From the NCBI GenBank assembly GCA_030141605.1, contig JAQGDQ010000432.1:66553-130552 (forward strand): DNA of 64,000 nt. Reading direction: 5' to 3'. The position numbers were made by a program, and so were the translations under genes. How positions within the stretch are numbered: the stretch's first letter is position 1; each line of letters opens with the position of its first letter. Below, one piece after another: positions 1,937 through 41,499 of this stretch. The notes under the pieces are model-generated. The model was not told the DNA's origin, searched no databases, and saw only the letters and a program-made list of their open reading frames with translations. Source of the stretch: Tubiluchus corallicola (taxonomy: Eukaryota; Priapulida; Priapulimorpha; Priapulimorphida; Tubiluchidae).

Positions 1937-2029
1937 CTTTGAACTGGCAGACGTCACCGGAAAACAAATGCTCGCACTGACATTTCCCATCCACAAGAGT
2001 TCCATGTTCTCCACAATCCACTGCAGCTC
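1937..2029 (-). CDS. LPMO-like gene, exon 5 (EGF-like module)
   Basis: A 93-bp exon with acceptor TTGTTCAACAG and probable donor AAAG|GTTTGT. It codes CGEHGTLVDGKCQCEHLF and SGDVCQFK: an EGF-like module with four cysteines, where Leu replaces the cysteine usual after HGT. If the donor is not used, reading through adds GLCIG and stops at TAG (1920-1922). I favour splicing, because the one-base overhang G would start an acidic codon (GAN), as expected after CQFK in this kind of protein, but the next exon was not found. Confidence 0.75.

Positions 2030-41499: not shown

Follow-up and report, generated by a model that had tools for sequence, protein, structure and literature searches.

Cytochrome domains of fungi reduce LPMOs. 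In cellobiose dehydrogenase (CDH) acting on an LPMO, as in CYBDOM, a heme domain of DOMON type serves as electron carrier; CDH and LPMO are two separate proteins, and CYBDOM joins a DOMON to cytochrome b561. Fungal X325/BIM1 proteins are described in PMC7924993 as having no polysaccharide activity and as serving copper uptake, and X325 is described with Asp as a further copper ligand (PMC10952591). Published descriptions assign the LPMO-type proteins of animals to AA15, and some LPMO16 are also counted among Metazoa (PMC6950343). The LPMO profile tree in the same paper (Voshol et al., 2019) has a branch combining DOMON/EGF with LPMO_10, mentioned in a few sentences; its main-text section gives no residues, gene structure or mechanism for it. 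In a coral, a DOMON-containing type I membrane protein is reported to rise at metamorphosis (PMC3204972).

By title and abstract, we found no dedicated study of an animal protein combining an LPMO-type domain with DOMON/EGF, and we found no literature on SCE4755 proteins; in both cases most subscription journals were outside coverage. Similar animal proteins are widespread. The combination of an LPMO-superfamily domain with DOMON in an animal protein has been noted once, as one branch of a tree.

The window, meaning the whole 64,000-nucleotide stretch of DNA analysed, is contig C1627:66553-130552, part of a 343.5 Mb genome. Its copper-domain gene has the same domain combination as the DOMON/EGF and LPMO_10 sequences of Voshol et al. 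(PMC6950343), and that branch is probably the family to which it belongs. Unlike CDH with its LPMO, or CYBDOM, the copper and DOMON domains are here in one chain.

Exon structure of the window gene

Within the window, the gene runs on the minus strand in five exons with four GT..AG introns, which join into 538 nt (179 codons plus one base) with no stop. Exon 1 (41361..41499) holds the start Met, the leader (residues 1-16, MRALVLLCSLWTIASA), His17 (codon 41451-41449) and HVELTYPPARTYALDFLDTTRTPGLCGMTR, and runs one base into the following codon; its H, L, PPAR, Y, D, LD and CGM were kept in all four copies of the domain that we aligned. Exon 2 (11810..11886) encodes GYGPVTNLVAGSNVTVTWFSPVNFHR, in which His71 (codon 11815-11813) is predicted to be the second ligand of the copper. 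Exon 3 (3989..4080) encodes the core region, GAFQLSLYDAEENLLETFTPEYLNKNDNFT, and has counterpart exons in the paralogues on contigs C821 and C648. Exon 4 (2661..2797) carries the C..C pair, Phe138 (codon 2694-2692) at the predicted axial position, and the SCADVNI end of the copper domain, CADVNI lying at residues 141-146. Exon 5 (1937..2029) encodes the first EGF-like module, CGEHGTLVDGKCQCEHLFSGDVCQFK, with Cys at 154, 165, 167 and 176, and matched Pfam EGF_Teneurin at 3.8e-5 (24.1 bits, cut-off 24.3). The first-pass annotation had joined five short exons in phase and had recognised an EGF module fused to the copper domain, and both points stand. Exon 5 is not the end of the gene: it closes in phase 1, at a weak donor (GTTTGT), positions 1..1936 are intron on the same minus strand, and the gene goes on leftward along C1627. 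A second EGF exon (C1627:65127-65005, minus strand), ∼1.4 kb left of the window, starts in a phase that fits exon 5.

The introns reach 29 kb, exon 2 being ∼29 kb away from exon 1. Two scans by motif missed exon 2, one coming back empty and the other without that exon. In a further scan, designed once exons 1 and 3 were known, splice scores and phase were evaluated on the minus strand from 41360 to 4081, with a His required near the exon end. The interval 11886-11810 came top of 11 candidates, of which the first three were one exon with three acceptors.

Exon phases of 1-0-2-1 were repeated in the paralogues C821 and C648. Across 143 codons the window gene and C821 (C1442 being left out of this comparison) had 59, 53 and 102 differences at codon positions 1, 2 and 3, and a different codon was used for 41 of their 66 identical residues. 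The window exons are confirmed as a real gene.

Predicted copper ligands and family assignment

On sequence evidence, the exons encode an LPMO-superfamily domain that is related to the bacterial SCE4755 proteins, and homologous to them despite a score under the cut-off: the best family match was the NCBIfam model NF043005 (SCE4755), at E 1.2e-11 and 44.9 bits, with a cut-off of 75. Shared with SCE4755 are the start His, [PL]CG, a second His before a strand, C..C before the last strand and the Cys-Ala end. The animal copy differs in lacking the bacterial middle insert, in being followed by EGF and DOMON, and in its axial Phe rather than Tyr. Searched against the own genome, the NF043005 profile found a single exon (E 0.087), and it had no match in any of 14 control genomes.

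Within the whole chain, the best Pfam match of the copper domain was BIM1-like / X325 (PF20238; E 3.5e-4), with 21.5 bits against a cut-off of 27. LPMO_10 (PF03067) scored 14.5 bits in the whole chain and 16.1 bits in the bare domain, short of its cut-off of 23. Both families had been named in the first-pass annotation as profiles to search; both gave matches, and both matches stayed under cut-off.

A single-sequence search of the PDB gave an EGF match at 0.28 alone. An animal-only profile found the AA15 structure TdAA15A at 0.077 (0.18 in another alignment version), beside a tRNA synthetase at 0.53-0.55, and a joint profile had TdAA15A as its best match. Placed beside TdAA15A (5MSZ), the domain aligns at the second His, the C..C pair and the CAD[VI].I positions; it is unlike AA15 in its score under the LPMO_10 cut-off, its shorter length, another N-terminal motif and Phe in place of the axial Tyr184.

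In the profile alignments His17, His71 and Phe138 fell on the TdAA15A ligands His1 and His91 and on Tyr184; the second copper ligand of TdAA15A is named in PMC5823890, and His71 also aligned to the bacterial motif YHPGHYR. His came directly after the hydrophobic leader in four of four copies, the leader of the window gene ending in ASA. We infer that the mature N-terminus and His71 would chelate copper as a histidine brace. These results agree with the first-pass annotation, which had proposed an LPMO-like domain distinct from AA15, with His17 straight after the leader and His71 on the strand of the second ligand.

We looked for relatives outside animal genomes. Viral contigs held none, whether searched by sequence or by alignment. 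Plasmids and phages gave no tblastn match, plasmids gave no megablast match for window 34000-42000, and bacterial genome contigs gave no match to the animal alignment.

Bacterial relatives and predicted fold

The bacterial relatives comprised 73 loci; 16 of these made up alignment A2, and eight of its 16 rows entered the joint alignment A6. An LPMO beta-sandwich fold was predicted for one bacterial relative, L042, to which the animal domain is linked by profile comparison. Foldseek with this bacterial model returned LPMOs first, at TM-scores of 0.59 or less and a best rmsd of 8.9. A second structural comparison of the model gave better alignments, with TdAA15A as the nearest fold and X325 as a related fold. 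In two of the 16 aligned loci (L050 and L078) the leader appeared longer, which makes cleavage immediately ahead of the aligned His less certain there. Inspection by eye of the ORFs around eight of the 73 loci turned up no common partner. Judged by eye as well, the neighbours of L042, L050 and L102 seem to include a quinoprotein bearing a cytochrome c motif, a cupredoxin resembling COX2, and a TonB receptor.

Paralogues in the same genome

In a protein search of the own genome, all four exons of the window gene's copper domain came up, as did exons on C821, C648 and C1192 and, weakly (E 0.27), one on C1442. C1192 and C648 show no difference in any of the four exons of this domain and are perhaps haplotypes kept separate in the assembly. 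The second His was kept in the window gene and C821, replaced by Asn in C648 and absent from C1442. In addition C648 had SCGDV for SCADV and Gln at the axial aromatic position, and C1442 was without the C..C pair. The frames of C648 and C1442 stay open despite the missing second His. Since half of the four copies are missing that residue, a complete brace is dispensable for the family, and from the residues present the predicted brace is a reading for the window gene and C821. In those two, the His, His, Phe and C..C pair were kept at only 50% identity, which suggests selection on the site.

C821, C648 and C1442 each chained in phase from the leader into DOMON2. The DOMON profile (PF03351, cut-off 32.7) matched them at 6.6e-38, 8.5e-25 and 1.9e-32 (130.2, 87.8 and 112.5 bits), in two stretches each, the C648 chain being scored without part of a DOMON exon. 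Among these three longer paralogue proteins, Pfam searches found BIM1-like in C1442 alone (0.0069), and up to a limit of 0.1 LPMO_10 matched none of the three. C1442 also matched CDH-cyt at E 0.033, with 14.3 bits (cut-off 27). C821 (∼269450, L028) had an in-frame stop right behind DOMON2 with no donor seen ahead of it, so it may be a secreted form; no transmembrane candidate was found within the stretch of C821 scanned. The hydropathy scan flagged transmembrane candidates in C648 and C1442, the C1442 pick being one of three flagged.

Continuation of the gene along contig C1627

Leftward of the window and on the same strand, C1627 carries exons matching those of the paralogues: DOMON1 exons from 63318, 58768 and 57753 (7.7e-9, 36.3 bits) and DOMON2 exons from 56258, 50745 and 49595 (1.9e-28, 99.6 bits), against a cut-off of 32.7. 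The join of exon 8 to exon 9 of the window gene fails in phase; exons 9 to 13 are mutually in phase. A third DOMON lies at 22103, same strand, past a run of 19 Kazal-like ORFs (C1627:47915-27039; L011, L012 and neighbours) that stands between it and DOMON2. Kazal matched at 4.9e-43 within one ORF, in four stretches. Phase-1 ends were the best splice choice in all eight of the 19 Kazal-like ORFs examined, with one acceptor tied, and phase-1 Kazal exons fit between DOMON2 and the third DOMON. Read by eye, the Cys-rich ORF lists of C821, C648 and C1442 contained no such Kazal run. Half of a SEA match was found on C1627 (0.009) and in C648 (0.012), both below cut-off, and the hydropathy scan placed a transmembrane candidate with a basic stop near C1627:8689, same strand.

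The Kazal, DOMON3, SEA-like and transmembrane exons are candidates for the same transcript as the copper domain. What the window exons encode is the N-terminal part, with the predicted copper site, of a large animal protein that is probably anchored as a type I membrane protein. Here the first-pass annotation, right about the domain, had missed that it is the N-terminal part of a larger DOMON protein. Some of the Kazal-like ORFs carry Thr/Pro-rich spacers, and an ORF at 26332 is a SAEPEP-rich repeat.

Five of five aligned DOMON2/3 domains have an invariant Met behind WTGIG[FY] and an invariant His ahead of P..S. That alignment was made without the incomplete DOMON3 of C648, whose Met and His were read by eye; for the last-exon joins of DOMON2 and DOMON3 on C1627 the acceptor was picked by eye, and in DOMON1 the Met and His were read by eye only. 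A Met-His pair has been modelled as heme ligands in a plant DOMON (PMC10784544), and the invariant Met and His are candidate heme ligands here. The best solved match of the DOMONs was dopamine beta-hydroxylase (1.2e-5), which has no Met at that position; the alignment ends before the His, and the search yielded no alignment to a solved heme-binding DOMON. From these residues and the sub-threshold CDH-cyt match of C1442 we consider heme likely in the DOMON domains. DOMON is able to bind sugars, as cited in PMC6950343 and PMC10784544, and the domains may instead bind sugar, or neither heme nor sugar.

Proposed function and alternatives

We propose, with a probability of roughly one half, that the gene encodes an LPMO-family copper domain at the cell surface, held in one chain with heme domains that would supply its electrons, the copper, heme and activity all being predictions from sequence. 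The copper site would sit at the outer end of the chain, followed by EGF linkers, then the probable hemes and the probable membrane anchor. Electrons would pass from the DOMON hemes to copper, much as fungal LPMOs receive theirs from cytochrome domains. The outcome would be a copper oxidase or peroxygenase tethered to the cell surface and carrying its electron donors with it (alternatively a cupric reductase), and the substrate would be a glycan or other matrix molecule within reach. Several findings weigh against a tethered enzyme. The second His is missing in half of the copies, and C821, the other copy with both His, is possibly secreted. The folded model is that of a bacterial relative, and the animal-only profile finds TdAA15A at just 0.077. 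No cytochrome b561 that could feed electrons from the cell was noticed, no profile search for it being included, and fungal X325/BIM1, a Pfam neighbour, showed no polysaccharide activity and serves copper uptake (PMC7924993).

A broader suggestion is tentative, and we lean against it for now: an animal cell-surface class whose single chain, combining an LPMO-type copper centre with several heme-type DOMONs, would form a self-powered monooxygenase or peroxygenase that remodels, or signals through, matrix or glycans, its brace-less paralogues having turned into receptors. We know of no earlier LPMO-family enzyme with built-in electron donors, so the tethered enzyme, if real, would be the first. 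A predicted copper brace and predicted hemes in one chain would make a direct, testable case for electron supply to LPMO-type centres, and point to a redox role on the surface of animal cells. Since some copies have the second His and others lack it, they offer a natural experiment on the question of whether the protein is there for its copper site.

The main rival, which we judge unlikely though well worth weighing, is copper acquisition or delivery in the manner of BIM1/X325 or CopC, with the DOMON hemes reducing Cu(II) to Cu(I) for import. X325/BIM1 is the best Pfam match of the copper domain in the whole chain, and its fold is related to that of the bacterial relative. Every BIM1-like score that comes with a cut-off falls below it, and the bare domain of the window gene had no BIM1-like match up to E 1, LPMO_10 alone appearing there (E 0.019). 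Sequence profiles reached AA9 and AA15 structures and did not reach LaX325, which was found by fold comparison of the bacterial relative. X325 is described with a further Asp ligand (PMC10952591). Unlike the window gene, X325/BIM1 proteins are fungal, Bim1 is GPI-anchored, and their available descriptions include no DOMON or EGF.

Rather improbable, in our estimate, is an adhesion or recognition protein whose copper-type domain and DOMONs bind matrix sugars, with a vestigial copper site that half of the copies no longer have. Matrix and adhesion proteins often contain EGF, Kazal and SEA modules. The open frames of C648 and C1442, both without the second His and C648 with Gln for the axial aromatic, fit this account, as does the sugar binding cited for DOMON (PMC6950343, PMC10784544). 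Against it, the window gene and C821 hold on to His, His, Phe and C..C at only 50% identity.

We give very little credence to an ordinary AA15 LPMO, secreted and fused to an EGF module, that digests chitin or cellulose. TdAA15A is the closest solved fold of the bacterial relative and the best joint-profile match, but the family scans disfavour this reading, with LPMO_10 at 14.5 (chain) and 16.1 (bare domain) bits versus 23; the domain is also shorter, has DOMON exons behind it and starts with a different motif. Chance joining of the exons, which introns of up to 29 kb and exons known from genomic sequence alone might invite, is refuted in practice by the paralogues (the same domain order in three, the same copper-domain exon phases in two), by the codon-position pattern between the window gene and C821, and by the family matches.

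Other features of the window

Searches of the window for Rfam families (at gathering level) and for tRNAs found neither. A trypsin-like serine protease exon (16139-16750, minus strand; Pfam 5.4e-15) sits within intron 1 of the copper gene and shares its strand. It reads GDSEGP; the usual motif of trypsin-like serine proteases is GDSGGP. An 87-base repeat in ten copies (10887-11753), with several frames open, ends 56 bases before exon 2. Tandem arrays were also noted at 43082-44332 (51 bases, 24.5 copies; long open frames on both strands), 52697-53494 (49 bases, 16.3 copies) and 837-1441 (63 bases, 9.7 copies). A repeat at ∼2142-2508, in the intron between exons 4 and 5, had at least 54 further matches in the genome at 68–86% identity.
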